From Rhabdothermincola sediminis (GTDB taxonomy: Bacteria > Actinomycetota > Acidimicrobiia > Acidimicrobiales > Acidimicrobilacustridaceae): a stretch of DNA of 64,000 bases. A model generated the notes under the pieces. The model was given only the letters and a program-made list of their open reading frames with translations, searched no databases and was not told the DNA's origin. Position 1 is the stretch's first letter. Each line of letters starts with the position of its first letter. Made by a program: the position numbers and the translations under genes. The stretch is taken from positions 1-64,000 of the forward strand of contig NZ_JACFSZ010000003.1 of NCBI RefSeq assembly GCF_014805525.1, in the 5' to 3' direction. Of this stretch, positions 42,201 through 47,652 are shown piece after piece.

Positions 42201-42880
42201 AATGGGACCAGACGTCCGGCCTGGTGATGTTCCTCCCCCACGGCTACGAGGGCCAGGGCCCGGAGCACTCCTCGGCGCGCATCGAACGGTTCCTCACGCT
42301 CGCGGCCGACGACAACATCCAATGCTGCAACCCCACCACCGCGGCCCAGCTCTTCCACCTCCTGCGCCGGCAGGTGCGCCGCCATGTTCGCAAGCCGCTC
42401 GTGGTGTTCACCCCGAAGTCGCTGCTGCGGGCGAAGGCCTCCCGATCGCCGGTCGACGCGTTCACCAGGGGTTCGTTCGAAGAGGTGCTCGACGACCCAC
42501 GGGTCGCGGACCCCTCGTCGGTGCGCAGGGTCGTGCTCGCCTCGGGAAAGGTGGCGGTCGAGGCGGAGGCCGAGCGTGACCGCCGGGGAGCTCCCGTGGC
42601 GATCGCTCGGGTCGAGCAGCTGTACCCCTGGCCCTACGAAGGTGTTGCACGGGTGCTGGCGCGCTACCCGAACGCCCGGGAGGTCGTGTGGCTGCAAGAG
42701 GAGCCCGAGAACATGGGAGCCTGGAACGCCATCAAAGGTCGGCTCTACGAGTCCCATGGTGAGACGCACTCGATCCGCCGGGTGAGCCGGGTCGAATCGG
42801 GCAGCCCTGCCGCCGGCGCATCGGTGATCCACCTCCAGGAGCAGTCGGCGCTCTTGGAGGACACCTTCGCTGGTCTCTGA
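39278..42880 (+). CDS. kgd: Multifunctional 2-oxoglutarate metabolism enzyme (Kgd, SucA-type)
   Basis: A 1200-residue fusion in which one chain carries the E1 decarboxylase and an E2-like succinyltransferase; it feeds the TCA cycle from 2-oxoglutarate. Residues 10-40 are the E1 N-terminal helix ('NAWLVDEMYERYVADPSSV'), then an Ala/Pro/Gly linker, an acyltransferase domain (about 85-330) with catalytic His297 in 'TYDHRIIQGAESG', and the thiamine-diphosphate E1 domain with GDAAFAGQG (628-636) and Asn-Asn (661-662). The lipoyl domain of normal E2 is missing, as in mycobacterial Kgd (about 1230 residues). The start is GTG, 7 nt after a -10 box. Confidence 0.95.
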   Translation: MAGLPPPSTIGPNAWLVDEMYERYVADPSSVSESWREFFHDYQPMSAAGADGGRAAPETTEPARGAPPAAGPQPEASGGAPPGEALRGAAARIAANMRASLEVPTATSFRDVPARLLEVNRSIINGYLERKQLGKVSFTHLIGYAVVRAISDSVPAMNSTYVEGPDGTPRVVRHEHVGLGLAVDVERPDGSRTLLVPCIPDADTLDFRGFWIAYEELIRKVRGNKLSPDDFTGVTVTLTNPGTIGTVQSVPRLMPGQGVIVGVGALGYPAEYEGADPATLADLGVSKVMTLTSTYDHRIIQGAESGLFLRRVHDLLLGQDGFYAEVFRSLGVPYQAVSWRRDVNPVDREQAMLSKQMRVQALVNQHRVRGHLIADLDPLAVEEPQMHPELDPATYGLTIWDLDREFLTGGIGGRERMRLGDLLHLLRDAYCRSIGIEYMHISEPAEKRWIQEHVEGVEVELTRPEKRHILERLNAAEALERFLATKYVGQKRFGIDGGESAIPILDAILSEAADAHLHSVTMGMAHRGRLNVLVNIVGKSYEQLFNEFEGNLDPESIQGSGDVKYHLGQTGKFVSPAGNEIPVELAANPSHLEAVDPVVVGMARARMDGIEPPGDHPAYPVLPLLIHGDAAFAGQGVVAETLNLSQIKGYRVGGTIHLIINNQLGFTTPPTAARSSEYATDVAKMVQAPIFHVNGDDPEACVRVARLAFAYRQAFHKDVVIDMLCYRRHGHNEADDPSYTQPLMYKRIDARRSVRKLYTEALVKRGDISLEEAEAALDDFQHRLQAALEETRAQAPPKASSFRSRAPVGVLPHVDTGVDRAVLDEVVRALDTVPEGFHLHPKLMRQFEARRKLYQGGEADWALGEALAFGTLLYEGTSVRLTGQDSRRGTFSHRHGVLVDYETEDEHTPLQQVARHGARFWLYDSLLSEFAALGFEYGYSVANRDALVIWEAQFGDFANGAQTIIDQFIVAAEDKWDQTSGLVMFLPHGYEGQGPEHSSARIERFLTLAADDNIQCCNPTTAAQLFHLLRRQVRRHVRKPLVVFTPKSLLRAKASRSPVDAFTRGSFEEVLDDPRVADPSSVRRVVLASGKVAVEAEAERDRRGAPVAIARVEQLYPWPYEGVARVLARYPNAREVVWLQEEPENMGAWNAIKGRLYESHGETHSIRRVSRVESGSPAAGASVIHLQEQSALLEDTFAGL

Positions 42881-42927
42881 CCCGCCCTCGCCTGCTCTCT
42901 CCCCCTCGCCACCTTCCCCCTCCTTTC

Positions 42928-42981
42928 GCGAACCGGCCTGTCAAACGCGTGCCCCGGCACGCAGATCCCCTGCCAGTTCGC
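42928..42981. repeat. REP-like palindrome upstream of the DUF559 gene
   Basis: Outer arms GCGAACCGGC (42928-42937) and GCCAGTTCGC (42972-42981) pair with one mismatch. Inner arms GCGTGCC (47-53) and GGCACGC (56-62) pair perfectly around CC. It lies 34 nt before the DUF559 gene start and in inverted orientation to the copies after the gene. Confidence 0.75.
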
Positions 42982-43015
42982 CGCTTCGCTAGGCAAGACG
43001 GACATGGAGGTGGAG

Positions 43016-43948
43016 ATGTCCCTCGACGAGGATCTCCGCTCGCTGGCGGCGCGCCAGCACTGCTTGTTCACGACCGACCAGGCTCAGGCGCTCGGCGCGA
43101 GCCGATCGGCGCTCGACCATCGGGTCCGTACCGGACGCTTGCACAGGGTGGCACCACGGGTGCTCTGCCTGGGCGGTGTGCCGATGACGACCCAGCTACG
43201 TCAGTGGGCGATCCTGCTCGAGTGTGGCGGTACCGCCGCGCTCTCACACCAGACGGCCGCAGCGCACTGGGGTGTCCCCGGCTACCGGGTCGAGCCGATC
43301 CAGGTGCTGCGACTTCGTGATGGCACCTATCCGCCGTCGCGGCTGGGGGTCGTCCATCACACCCGCTCCCTTCCCGATGACCACGTGGCTATCCTCGACG
43401 GTTTGCGGATCACCACCCCGGCCCGCACGCTCTTCGACCTCGCCCCACACGTCTCGCCAGGACGTCTGGAACGTCTGATCGACCACGCGTGGTCCCACCG
43501 CCTGGTGACCGGGCGCCTGCTCGACCGGACACTCCGGGACCTCAGCCGTCGTGGTCGCCCGGGAATCCGGATCATGCGCGCGCTGCTGGCGGAACGGGGT
43601 CCCGACTACCAGCCGCCGGACAGCGCGCTGGAGGCACGGTTCGAGAAGCTCCTCCGAGAGGATGGCCAAGCGCCGATGGAGCGCCAGGTGGATCTCGGCG
43701 GCGAGGACTGGCTGGGCAGAGTCGACTTCGTGGACCACGAGGCGCGGGTGATCGTCGAGATCGACAGCGACTTGCACCACACGAGCATCAGCGACCGTCG
43801 AGCCGACGCGGCCCGGCAGGCCGCGCTCGAGGCTGCGGGCTGGCTCGTGGTCCGCATCACCGAGTTCGAGCTGTGGCACCGCCCGCAGGAGGTCGTCGAG
43901 AGGGTGCGCCGGGCGCGGGCATCAGCCTGGCAACGAACCGGCAGCTGA
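43016..43948 (+). CDS. AbiEi-type winged-helix plus DUF559 endonuclease-like protein
   Basis: 310 residues. Residues 1-55 resemble the AbiEi antitoxin N-terminal winged helix ('CLFTTDQAQALGASRSALDHRVRTG'), the middle is the AbiEi-like body ('GVVHHTRSLPDDHVAILDGLRITTPARTLFDLA'), and the C-terminus is DUF559, a Vsr-like PD-(D/E)XK fold ('DFVDHEARVIVEIDSDLHH', with Asp237, Glu248 and Asp250) ending 'GWLVVRITEFELWHRPQEVV'. DNA cleavage or nicking is inferred, not shown. The ATG at 43016 is chosen because GGAGG lies 5 nt upstream; the ATG at 43004 contains that site. The 3' end runs into a palindromic repeat. No AbiEii toxin is adjacent. Confidence 0.82.
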   Translation: MSLDEDLRSLAARQHCLFTTDQAQALGASRSALDHRVRTGRLHRVAPRVLCLGGVPMTTQLRQWAILLECGGTAALSHQTAAAHWGVPGYRVEPIQVLRLRDGTYPPSRLGVVHHTRSLPDDHVAILDGLRITTPARTLFDLAPHVSPGRLERLIDHAWSHRLVTGRLLDRTLRDLSRRGRPGIRIMRALLAERGPDYQPPDSALEARFEKLLREDGQAPMERQVDLGGEDWLGRVDFVDHEARVIVEIDSDLHHTSISDRRADAARQAALEAAGWLVVRITEFELWHRPQEVVERVRRARASAWQRTGS

Positions 43949-43985
43949 TCTGCGTGCTCTGGCACGCGTTTGACATGCCAGTTCG
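43934..43985. repeat. REP-like palindrome, first copy after DUF559 gene
   Basis: CGAACCGGCA (43934-43943) and TGCCAGTTCG (43976-43985) pair with one mismatch; inner stem GCGTGC/GCACGC (43952-43957 and 43962-43967) with loop TCTG. The element covers the last five codons of the DUF559 gene and its stop. Confidence 0.75.
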
Positions 43986-44059
43986 CGAGGGGGGCGCGGA
44001 CCGGCAGCGAAAACGCGTGCCAGAGCACGCGTTTGACATGCCAGTTCGCGAGGGGGGCG
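43962..44059. repeat. 35-bp perfect direct repeat (two copies, 63-bp period)
   Basis: Bases 43962-43996 and 44025-44059 are identical over 35 bp (starting GCACGCGTTTGACATG, ending GAGGGGGGCG). They are the right halves of two neighbouring palindromes. Confidence 0.85.
43998..44049. repeat. REP-like palindrome, second copy after DUF559 gene
   Basis: The core is a perfect 10-bp stem, AAACGCGTGC (44011-44020) and GCACGCGTTT (44025-44034), with loop CAGA. Outer arms GGACCGGCA (43998-44006) and TGCCAGTTC (44039-44047) pair imperfectly. Confidence 0.75.
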
Positions 44060-44083
44060 GTGGTGGGCGACGGTCGGCGGTGG

Positions 44084-44710
44084 TCAGCGGAGGGGGAAGC
44101 CCACCACGGCCTCGAGCTGCGCGAGGGCCTGGTGCGGATCGACCACCTTGATCGTGGACATACCCATCTCGCGGGCGGGCTTCAGGTTCACACCGAGGTC
44201 GTCGAGGAACACCGCCTCGCCCGGCTCGATGCCGAGCTCACGGCACGCCAGCTCGTAGAACCGGGGATCCGGCTTGCGAACGCCCACCTTGCTCGACTCG
44301 ATCACCACGTCGAACAAGGCGAGCACTGCGCCCATCTCGCCCTCGCGGTCGACGTGACCGTCGACGGTGACGAAGTTGTTGGTGAGCAGCCCGGTGAGCA
44401 GGCGTTCCGAACACCGGCGGACCGCCTCGACCATCTCGGGACGCAGCTCGCCGCCGAGCAGGGCCAGGACCTCCCGAGCGTCCAGGCGGTGCCCGGCATC
44501 CGCTGCCTCAGCCTCGAACCGCTCGCAGAACTCGTCGAGGGTGATCTTGCGGCGCTCGAGCTGCGCCCAGGCATTGGTGTCGGGGTTGGTCGCGTTCACC
44601 CGCCGGATGAAGCCCTCCGGAAGTCCGCGCTCTGCCTCGTATCGGGCGAAGGCGTCGAACGGCGACGAGAGGATCACCCCGCCGAAGTCGAAGAGCACGG
44701 CGCGGATCAC
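44084..44710 (-). CDS. HAD-superfamily hydrolase (subfamily IA)
   Basis: 208 residues. Motif I 'AVLFDFGGVILSS' (nucleophile Asp), motif II 'TGLLTNNF', motif III Lys in 'VGVRKPDPRFYELA' and motif IV 'AVFLDDLGVNLKPAREMGM' are all present. The pattern matches the phosphatase-type HAD found in ACAD10 and soluble epoxide hydrolase N-domains. A phosphomonoesterase or haloacid-type role is possible. GTG start, 6 nt after the M20 gene stop, likely co-transcribed. Confidence 0.87.
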   Translation of the reverse strand: MIRAVLFDFGGVILSSPFDAFARYEAERGLPEGFIRRVNATNPDTNAWAQLERRKITLDEFCERFEAEAADAGHRLDAREVLALLGGELRPEMVEAVRRCSERLLTGLLTNNFVTVDGHVDREGEMGAVLALFDVVIESSKVGVRKPDPRFYELACRELGIEPGEAVFLDDLGVNLKPAREMGMSTIKVVDPHQALAQLEAVVGFPLR

Positions 44711-46060: not shown

Positions 46061-46236
46061 CTGGAGCAGCGTAGGCTGCGTTGGTCGATGCCCGCCGGCT
46101 CGACACGGCCGCCACTGGCGATCCGGACCGCTCGGCCCACCGGGCGCGAAGCGCGTCGGTTCGCGATCGGGGCCACCCAGTCCACCTCATCACGCCTGCC
46201 CGCGGGCAGGCCCACGACCCGGGAACACACGAATCG

Positions 46237-47652
46237 ATGATCCGACCGCACGTGGTGGTCGACGGCTCCAACATCGCGACCGAAGGCCGTTCGACCCCCA
46301 GCCTCCGTCAGCTGGACGAGGCGGTGCGGGCCTTCATGGCCGAGCATCCCTCCGACATCGTCACCGTGGTGGTCGACGCGACCTTCGGGCACCGCATCGA
46401 CCCATCCGAGCGCGCCGAGTTCGACGACGCCGTGTCGTCGGGGGAGCTCATCACCGCTCCCGCCGGGGCGATCGGACGGGGTGACGCGTTCATCCTCCAG
46501 ATCGCCGACAAGGCGGATGCCACCATCCTCTCCAACGACTCCTTCCAGGAGTTCCACGGCCAGCACGAATGGCTCTTCGACGAGGGCCGGCTGGTCGGCG
46601 GCAAACCGATCCCCGGTGTCGGCTGGGTCTTCCTGCTGCGAACCCCCGTCCGTGGGCCCGCCAGCAGGCGAGCCGTGAAGGAAGCCAAGGACAAGGCGGG
46701 CAAGGCCAAGGGGAAGGCCCCGGAGAAGGAGGAGAAGGAGGCGAAGAAGGACGGGCGGGGCGCAAAGCCCTCCAAGGGGGCCGAGAAGCCGAAGGCCGCG
46801 AAGAAGGACGAGGAGAAGGCCGCCAAACGCAGCCGCAAGAAGCGGTCGAAGCCGTCGGAGGCGATCAACCCCGCATTGCCGTTCATCGAGTTCGTCGGAA
46901 GGCATCCGGTCGGGTCGGTGCTCGACGCGACGGTCACACAGTTCTCCTCCCACGGCGCGTACGTGGAGGTCGAGGGCGTCACCTGCTACGTGCCGCTCCG
47001 TCTCATGGGTGACCCGCCACCACGATCGGCCCGCGACGTGCTCCAGATCGGCGAGACCCGCACCTTTGCCGTGCACACCATCGATGCGGCGTTGCGAGGT
47101 GTCGACCTCGCACTCGTCGCGACGCGCGATCGCGCGGCGGAACGTCGTCACAAAGAGACGAGTGCGGTGACCGATGAGGCATCGATCACTCGCGCGACGG
47201 CACGTGAGATCGAAGAGGACGCGACGAAAACCAACACAAGCGCATCGTTCCTTGCTACAACTTTCACAGCAGACCAACACGCCGAGGAGGCGCAGGTGAC
47301 ACCAGCAAAGAAAGCTGCGAGCAAGCGAGCAGCCAAGAGGACCACCGCGAAGCGGGCCGCGAAGAAGGCTCCCGCGCGCAAGGCAGCGAAGAGCGCGCCG
47401 GCCAAGAAGAAGGCGGCGGCGCGGAAGACCACCGCGAAGCGGACCACGAAGAAGGCCACCGCCAAGCGCACCGCCAAGAAGGCCACGAAGAAGGCTCCGG
47501 CCAAGAAGGCCACCGCGAAGCGGACCACGAAGAAGGCGACCGCCAAGCGCACGGCCAAGAAGGCGACCGCCAAGAAGGCCACGAAGAAGGCTCCGGCCAA
47601 GAAGGCCACCGCGAAGCGCACGACGAAGAAGGCTCCGGCCCGCCGCCGCTAG
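46237..47652 (+). CDS. NYN/PIN-like RNase, S1 RNA-binding domain and histone-H1-like tail fusion
   Basis: 471 residues with an unusual order. Residues 1-135 form a Zc3h12a/NYN RNase domain: 'VVVDGSNIATEG' (Asp9, Asn12), 'TVVVDATFGHRIDP', 'GRGDAFILQIADKADATILSNDSF'. A Lys/Glu-rich charged linker follows (about 147-208), then an S1 domain (about 221-293, 'GSVLDATVTQFSSHGAYVEV'). The tail from residue 354 is a Lys/Ala/Thr/Arg repeat like histone H1 or HupB C-termini. It would bind and cut RNA and could contact DNA or RNA with the tail. The ATG at 46237 is inferred from the NYN start. Promoter not clear. Confidence 0.8.
   Translation: MIRPHVVVDGSNIATEGRSTPSLRQLDEAVRAFMAEHPSDIVTVVVDATFGHRIDPSERAEFDDAVSSGELITAPAGAIGRGDAFILQIADKADATILSNDSFQEFHGQHEWLFDEGRLVGGKPIPGVGWVFLLRTPVRGPASRRAVKEAKDKAGKAKGKAPEKEEKEAKKDGRGAKPSKGAEKPKAAKKDEEKAAKRSRKKRSKPSEAINPALPFIEFVGRHPVGSVLDATVTQFSSHGAYVEVEGVTCYVPLRLMGDPPPRSARDVLQIGETRTFAVHTIDAALRGVDLALVATRDRAAERRHKETSAVTDEASITRATAREIEEDATKTNTSASFLATTFTADQHAEEAQVTPAKKAASKRAAKRTTAKRAAKKAPARKAAKSAPAKKKAAARKTTAKRTTKKATAKRTAKKATKKAPAKKATAKRTTKKATAKRTAKKATAKKATKKAPAKKATAKRTTKKAPARRR
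47296..47652 (+). CDS. Possible internal start: H1-like Lys-rich protein
   Basis: GTG at 47296 is in frame with the NYN-S1 gene and has GAGGAGG 6 nt upstream, the best ribosome binding site in the region. It would start a 118-residue protein made wholly of AAKK/TAKR/KAPAKK repeats, similar to actinobacterial histone-H1-like proteins. The 150 bases before it are AT-richer than the surroundings, as a promoter or translation-start region would be. Whether it is expressed separately is not shown by sequence. Confidence 0.4.
   Translation: MTPAKKAASKRAAKRTTAKRAAKKAPARKAAKSAPAKKKAAARKTTAKRTTKKATAKRTAKKATKKAPAKKATAKRTTKKATAKRTAKKATAKKATKKAPAKKATAKRTTKKAPARRR
47431..47642 (+). repeat. Tandem repeats encoding the Lys-rich tail
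   Basis: Blocks starting ACCGCGAAGCGGACCACG recur at about 47431 and 47511, and a close variant at about 47608, encoding TAKRTTKKATAKRTAKKAT. This is a coding tandem repeat, prone to length change. Confidence 0.7.

Follow-up and report, generated by a model that had tools for sequence, protein, structure and literature searches.

The closest described systems to the one analysed here are the REP/RAYT pairs ('REPtrons', TnpA-REP, Y1/HUH), in which enzyme and repeat co-evolve (PMC8266576, PMC3733652). RAYTs are the enzymes known to be paired with REPs, and a 2013 survey of these elements also includes CGTC REPs, for which no dedicated enzyme is known (PMC3733652). Two other groups come close through their proteins: the AbiE type IV toxin-antitoxin systems, and the EDxHD homing and Vsr mismatch endonucleases, among which I-Bth0305I reportedly binds as a dimer to a site almost 60 bp long (PMC3943268, a review).

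The gene described here lies in a window of 64,000 nucleotides of Rhabdothermincola sediminis (the window being the whole stretch of DNA analysed), between copies of a palindrome. The arrangement resembles REP/RAYT systems in that short palindromes are dispersed at extragenic sites and each palindrome family has one enzyme gene, which is flanked by its copies and co-evolves with them. In contrast to RAYTs, the protein combines an AbiEi-type winged helix (wHTH) with an EDxHD/DUF559 nuclease and lacks the Y1/HUH domain (PF01797), the palindromes measure about 45-60 nt against the 20-40 bp of REPs (PMC3733652) and often end in (AA|TT)CTG instead of GTAG, and the genomes concerned are mostly without Y1 enzymes. 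CGTC-type REPs are comparable as REP-like repeats without a known dedicated transposase (PMC3733652), but here there is a specific candidate enzyme, and sequence and tags differ. With EDxHD and Vsr enzymes the protein shares nuclease-domain profile similarity and the E-D-H-D residues, and the long site of I-Bth0305I is a further likeness, but the gene was not seen within an intron or intein and stands beside dispersed palindromes, an association unreported for those enzymes in the literature searched. Its N-terminal part matches AbiEi profiles, as in AbiE systems, but is fused to a nuclease, and no AbiEii-type toxin gene was recognised next to the window gene, whose neighbours are kgd and a HAD-hydrolase gene. 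The system is thus neither a RAYT system, since enzyme and tag differ, nor an AbiE toxin-antitoxin pair, since no partner gene was recognised.

The window gene and its three palindromes

As originally predicted, the gene joins an AbiEi winged helix to a DUF559 nuclease. Domain profiles place AbiEi_4 at residues 9-50 of the 314-aa protein (E 4.7e-7) and MTES_1575/DUF559 nuclease matches at residues 239-303 (E 5.9e-10 and 4.9e-9); the DUF559/MTES_1575 scores exceed the curated Pfam cut-offs (39.5 vs 38.2 bits and 36.5 vs 20.6 bits), and the PADLOC AbiEi profile spans residues 7-184 (E 9e-28). A profile made from 37 homologues matches the DUF559 structure 3hrl, Vsr (1cw0/1vsr) and the 'Mobile intron protein' 3r3p, which we take to be I-Bth0305I, after which the EDxHD homing endonucleases are typified. 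Structure prediction from the single sequence gave a poor model (pLDDT 49), unfit for fold search. The nuclease domain bears the E-D-H-D residues of EDxHD/Vsr-type nucleases, which are conserved among 68 sequences (E210 in 65/68, D241 in 68/68, H259 in 63/68 and D268 in 65/68). Matching repeats accompany 40 of the 58 genes with intact E-D-H-D residues and 4 of the 10 with altered ones, so that four altered genes keep their repeats all the same; the difference is weak.

Three palindromes of about 52 nt bracket the gene (Table 1), the first downstream copy overlapping its last codons (the stop codon ends at 43948), and the whole unit lies in the intergenic region, where no intron or intein was seen around it. 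The upstream copy is inverted, being 85% complementary to the first downstream copy over 55 nt, and the two downstream copies have a 35-bp perfect repeat in common. Single-stranded DNA folding gives the nested hairpin in all three (z -2.1 to -5.9 against shuffles), and a 24-mer half-site, allowing up to 3 mismatches, finds 3 sites in the window against 0 in 100 shuffles. In these features, namely palindromes on both sides, inversion, nested hairpins, perfect repeat and overlap, the locus is as the original prediction described it; the gap between upstream palindrome and gene, given there as 34 nt, is in fact 23 nt to the ATG at 43004.

Table 1. Positions in the window of the gene, its palindromes and its neighbours
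Feature	Position	Strand	Remark
kgd, upstream neighbour of the unit	stop at 42880		
Intergenic region holding the whole palindrome-gene-palindrome unit	42881-44083	.	from kgd to the convergent HAD-hydrolase gene
Upstream palindrome, 52-56 nt, nested hairpin	42926-42981	-	orientation opposite to that of the downstream copies; 23 nt from its end to the ATG
Gene for the 314-aa AbiEi-type winged-helix plus DUF559/MTES_1575 (Vsr/EDxHD-like) nuclease	43004-43948	+	
AbiEi_4 winged-helix domain, residues 9-50	43028-43153	+	presumed DNA recognition
Nuclease domain, residues 206-304	43619-43915	+	conserved E210, D241, H259, D268
First downstream palindrome	43934-43988	+	overlaps the gene's last codons
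35-bp perfect direct repeat, copy 1	43962-43996	+	right arm plus GAGGGGGGCG spacer
Second downstream palindrome	43995-44051	+	63-bp period with the first downstream copy
35-bp perfect direct repeat, copy 2	44025-44059	+	
HAD-hydrolase gene, convergent neighbour	44084-44710	-	

Two further features were seen in the same window. In the region of the HAD-hydrolase gene, positions 44096-44181 (-) resemble the ASdes sRNA family of Rfam below threshold (29.4 bits, gathering 40), and at 46081-47652 (+) a 523-aa open reading frame has a globular N-terminal part followed by an extended tail rich in Lys and Ala (AKKA-type), as in histone H1-like proteins.

Palindromes across the genome and beside homologues

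The genome of the window (G000) holds about 55 palindrome copies in 33 clusters, frequently as tandem arrays with a period of 62-63 bp. Simple gene calling puts 32 of the 33 clusters outside genes; 13 clusters lie at convergent, 11 at tandem and 7 at divergent junctions. The same genome has one full copy of the gene and one remnant, and no Y1/RAYT transposase (PF01797). The palindrome sequence was not found in 40 relatives; an exact half-palindrome had one chance-like match in public genomes (a Burkholderiales bin) and none in viral contigs. Aligned copies from this genome and two others (G053 and G030) have no conserved GTAG/CGTC flank. The arms of each G000 copy pair with each other no better than the family consensus predicts (12.40 vs 12.36 pairs), and, lacking such copy-specific compensation, the copies may be old. 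Insertion of the palindromes into pre-existing inverted repeats was considered and rejected, as the flanks are no more complementary than swapped flanks. The remnant, a fragment of a second DUF559/AbiEi gene (C2:92291-92611, L072), is the sole other DUF559 fragment in this genome; it has no palindrome nearby and is perhaps a decayed pair.

A genome-wide scatter of the palindrome without DUF559 neighbours had been expected to speak against the pairing of gene and repeat. Formally, that scatter is what this genome shows, but REP-type systems, with one enzyme gene and many solo palindromes, show the same pattern.

Of 296 genomes from the phylum, 97 have DUF559/AbiEi fusion genes, many of them more than one paralogue, and homologues in relatives are flanked by hairpins of wholly different sequence. 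We compared flanking hairpins (strong being a score of at least 13) in genes with enough flank, using other genes of the same regions as controls. Upstream, 28/68 homologues but 12/363 controls have a strong hairpin (Fisher p 1e-16); downstream the figures are 21/71 and 12/348 (Fisher p 3e-10), and for both sides at once 13/67 and 0/323. A second comparison did not rely on hairpin scores: in 44 of 68 genes the two flanks of the same gene, upstream and downstream, resemble each other more than the 99.9th percentile of mismatched pairs, and permuted partners reached the observed mean in 0/10000 trials; in the remaining 24 of the 68 a matching repeat pair is absent. Printed alignments show that these upstream and downstream repeats are palindromes or imperfect palindromes. 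Some homologues beyond the order are likewise arranged, such as L168, with near-perfect palindromes of about 50 bp on both sides. The outer-end motif (AA|TT)CTG is present in 24 of 56 flanking palindromes where 2.3 were expected. At five loci (L116, L122, L111, L165 and L109) pairs of palindromes stand on each side, much like REPIN/BIME doublets, with a repeat unit of some 100-120 nt.

Used as queries, 24 homologue palindromes had matches in all 18 genomes searched, with at least 2 to 51 per genome when both strands are counted; among the matches listed, all concern the genome's own palindrome. In G053 and G030, 22 and 23 near-identical copies align as a unit of about 50 nt with sharp edges and unrelated flanks. 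Across all gene pairs, protein identity correlates weakly with flank similarity (Mantel 0.086, 15/1000). Because the best pairs had syntenic neighbour genes in common, not palindromes, we dropped this correlation in favour of a comparison of sister species.

Could these be mere terminators acting in both directions, or hairpins that arise by chance in GC-rich DNA, near an unrelated gene? Many copies do lie at convergent gene ends. However, no T-run terminators were found at the palindromes, Rfam gave sub-threshold matches and no family at gathering score, the hairpins are enriched over control genes of the same regions, and upstream and downstream flanks match each other. The palindromes of sister species, described below, also contradict this explanation, and we hold it to be very improbable.

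More deserving of attention, though still improbable, is the reading of the palindromes as operators of an AbiEi-type autorepressor, the dispersed copies being a regulon or decoys on which the nuclease does not act. AbiEi domains are antitoxin or autoregulator folds; the upstream palindrome of the window stands 23 nt from the start codon, and among homologues upstream is the commoner side for hairpins. Against this, a copy is usually present downstream of the gene too, the G000 clusters favour convergent over divergent junctions (13 of 33 and only 7, respectively), and many G030 copies directly follow the stop codons of convergent genes. The nuclease residues are conserved, moreover, and near-identical dispersed copies imply active copying.

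Sister species and the history of the locus

Three sister species of one genus (G030, G353 and G352) carry different variants of the palindrome, which read GCGTGAACAAACTGCGGAAC.. in G030, GCGTGAACTCGTTGCGCACC.. in G353 and GCGTGAACAATTTGCAGGAC.. in G352. Sites in sister species orthologous to the solo palindromes of G030 are palindrome-free or carry a variant. We had set out beforehand that, if the DUF559 protein is the partner of the palindrome, each orthologue should be flanked by its own species' variant. This is what we observed: orthologues of one gene carry species-specific palindromes, whose two arms have changed together. When the gene-side copy is compared with the dispersed copies within each species, 40/41 bases agree in G030, 38, 37 and 31/41 in G353 and 36 and 37/41 in G352; comparison with the other sister species gives 32/41 at most. 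Of the three copies in G353, the one with 31/41 is intermediate. In an 11-row alignment 94.7% of cells pair, and 10 of 19 stem pairs are changed on both sides. The covariation score was 0.425, with shuffles at 0.183 (0/500). Even without any structure, relatedness of the sequences may lift a score above such shuffles; slid controls, at 0.149 or less, are also far below 0.425, however. An alignment of the G030 locus with its G353 orthologue extends for some 3.5 kb with 80% identity, from which we conclude that the gene was inherited in place there. The palindrome thus co-diverges with the orthologous gene, species by species.

At or near sites orthologous to those of G030, three loci in sister species, L267 (1698), L280 (1704) and L268 (1669), hold perfect palindromes of other families, such as GGGGTCGGATACGTTTCGTC... 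Convergent gene ends may therefore attract more than one family of palindromes, as hot spots.

The proposal that the DUF559 nuclease stands to its palindromes as RAYTs stand to REPs is strongly supported by the pairing across dozens of genomes together with this co-divergence, and we consider the partnership of gene and palindrome close to certain. It is quite unlikely that the palindromes owe their spread to a different enzyme or to a process of the host, with DUF559 genes as passengers settling in or beside them. One of the 19 genomes examined does have a Y1 transposase (Y1_Tnp, PF01797), and CGTC repeats are an example of REP-like repeats without a known enzyme (PMC3733652). Y1 enzymes are nevertheless missing from the other 18, and palindrome identity is specific to the gene and changes with its orthologues across species.

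Over longer times the gene has moved or been lost, since duplications within genomes and gene-free kgd-HAD junctions are both found. A homologue occupies the same junction in G026, and that of G013 adjoins kgd, while in at least 12 relatives kgd and the HAD gene are direct neighbours; no homing target was recognised. The gene tree contains many within-genome duplications, and the copies at the kgd-HAD junction are compatible with one or several insertions.

These junctions, the many clusters of paralogues and the presence of one gene with repeats on both sides would also suit an IS-like transposon with palindromic ends, in which DUF559 is a true transposase and the solo palindromes are MITE-like. 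We judge this unlikely. Unlike an insertion sequence, the gene was not seen as a set of near-identical copies with ends in any one genome, the closest paralogues being about 79% identical, and it stays put in the sister-species series. The family is almost absent from plasmids (one weak match) and phages (none). Neither target duplications nor insertion events with exact boundaries were found at the sites compared, where the sequences are too diverged for them to be read. The earlier suggestion of a self-mobilising gene is not supported, as the gene is inherited in place in the one genus looked at and no genome was seen to hold a pair of near-identical copies. The idea that tRNA genes serve as insertion sites was rejected, since none were found beside the genes in the ten sources scanned.

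A possible mechanism and its meaning

We slightly favour, as a whole, a mechanism in which a REP-like palindrome family has a cognate nuclease that would recognise and cut it and so spread or homogenise it. The protein would most likely dimerise on the palindrome of about 50 bp via its AbiEi-type winged helix, as duplex, cruciform or hairpin; the nearly 60 bp target of I-Bth0305I is close to the length of the palindromes and was counted in favour of this reading. The EDxHD/Vsr-like domain would then nick or cut DNA at the palindrome, and repair would copy the palindrome into new intergenic sites or convert existing copies to the current version. As an outcome, palindromes would become dispersed, build up tandem arrays of 62-63 bp period and be replaced in step with the enzyme. 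Flanking copies would hold the enzyme and its repeat together and probably have a part in regulating the gene. Such a cut-and-repair model would account for the dispersal, the tandem arrays, the sharp edges, the restriction of each palindrome to its genome and the concerted change with the enzyme. Whether it amounts to a class of palindromic mobile DNA new to bacteria, in which one AbiEi-wHTH/EDxHD nuclease cleaves the palindrome that belongs to it, repair of the breaks leads to copying or conversion of the palindrome genome-wide, and site and enzyme co-evolve species by species, seems to us evenly balanced.

Our search found no literature linking DUF559 to repeats, or DUF559 with AbiEi; it covered titles and abstracts, with few subscription papers and no dedicated bioRxiv set, and priority is uncertain. 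The observations point to an undescribed enzyme-repeat partnership, which would be the functional counterpart of REP/RAYT but rely on an unrelated catalyst. If true, a second, unrelated class of enzymes is paired with dispersed palindromes, an independent solution to the problem that REPs and RAYTs solve, and the DUF559/AbiEi fusion genes gain a function. Their many pairs of enzyme and palindrome would then form a natural set for learning how a nuclease fold reads sites of about 50 bp. The system makes testable the question of how short palindromes that carry no transposase multiply.
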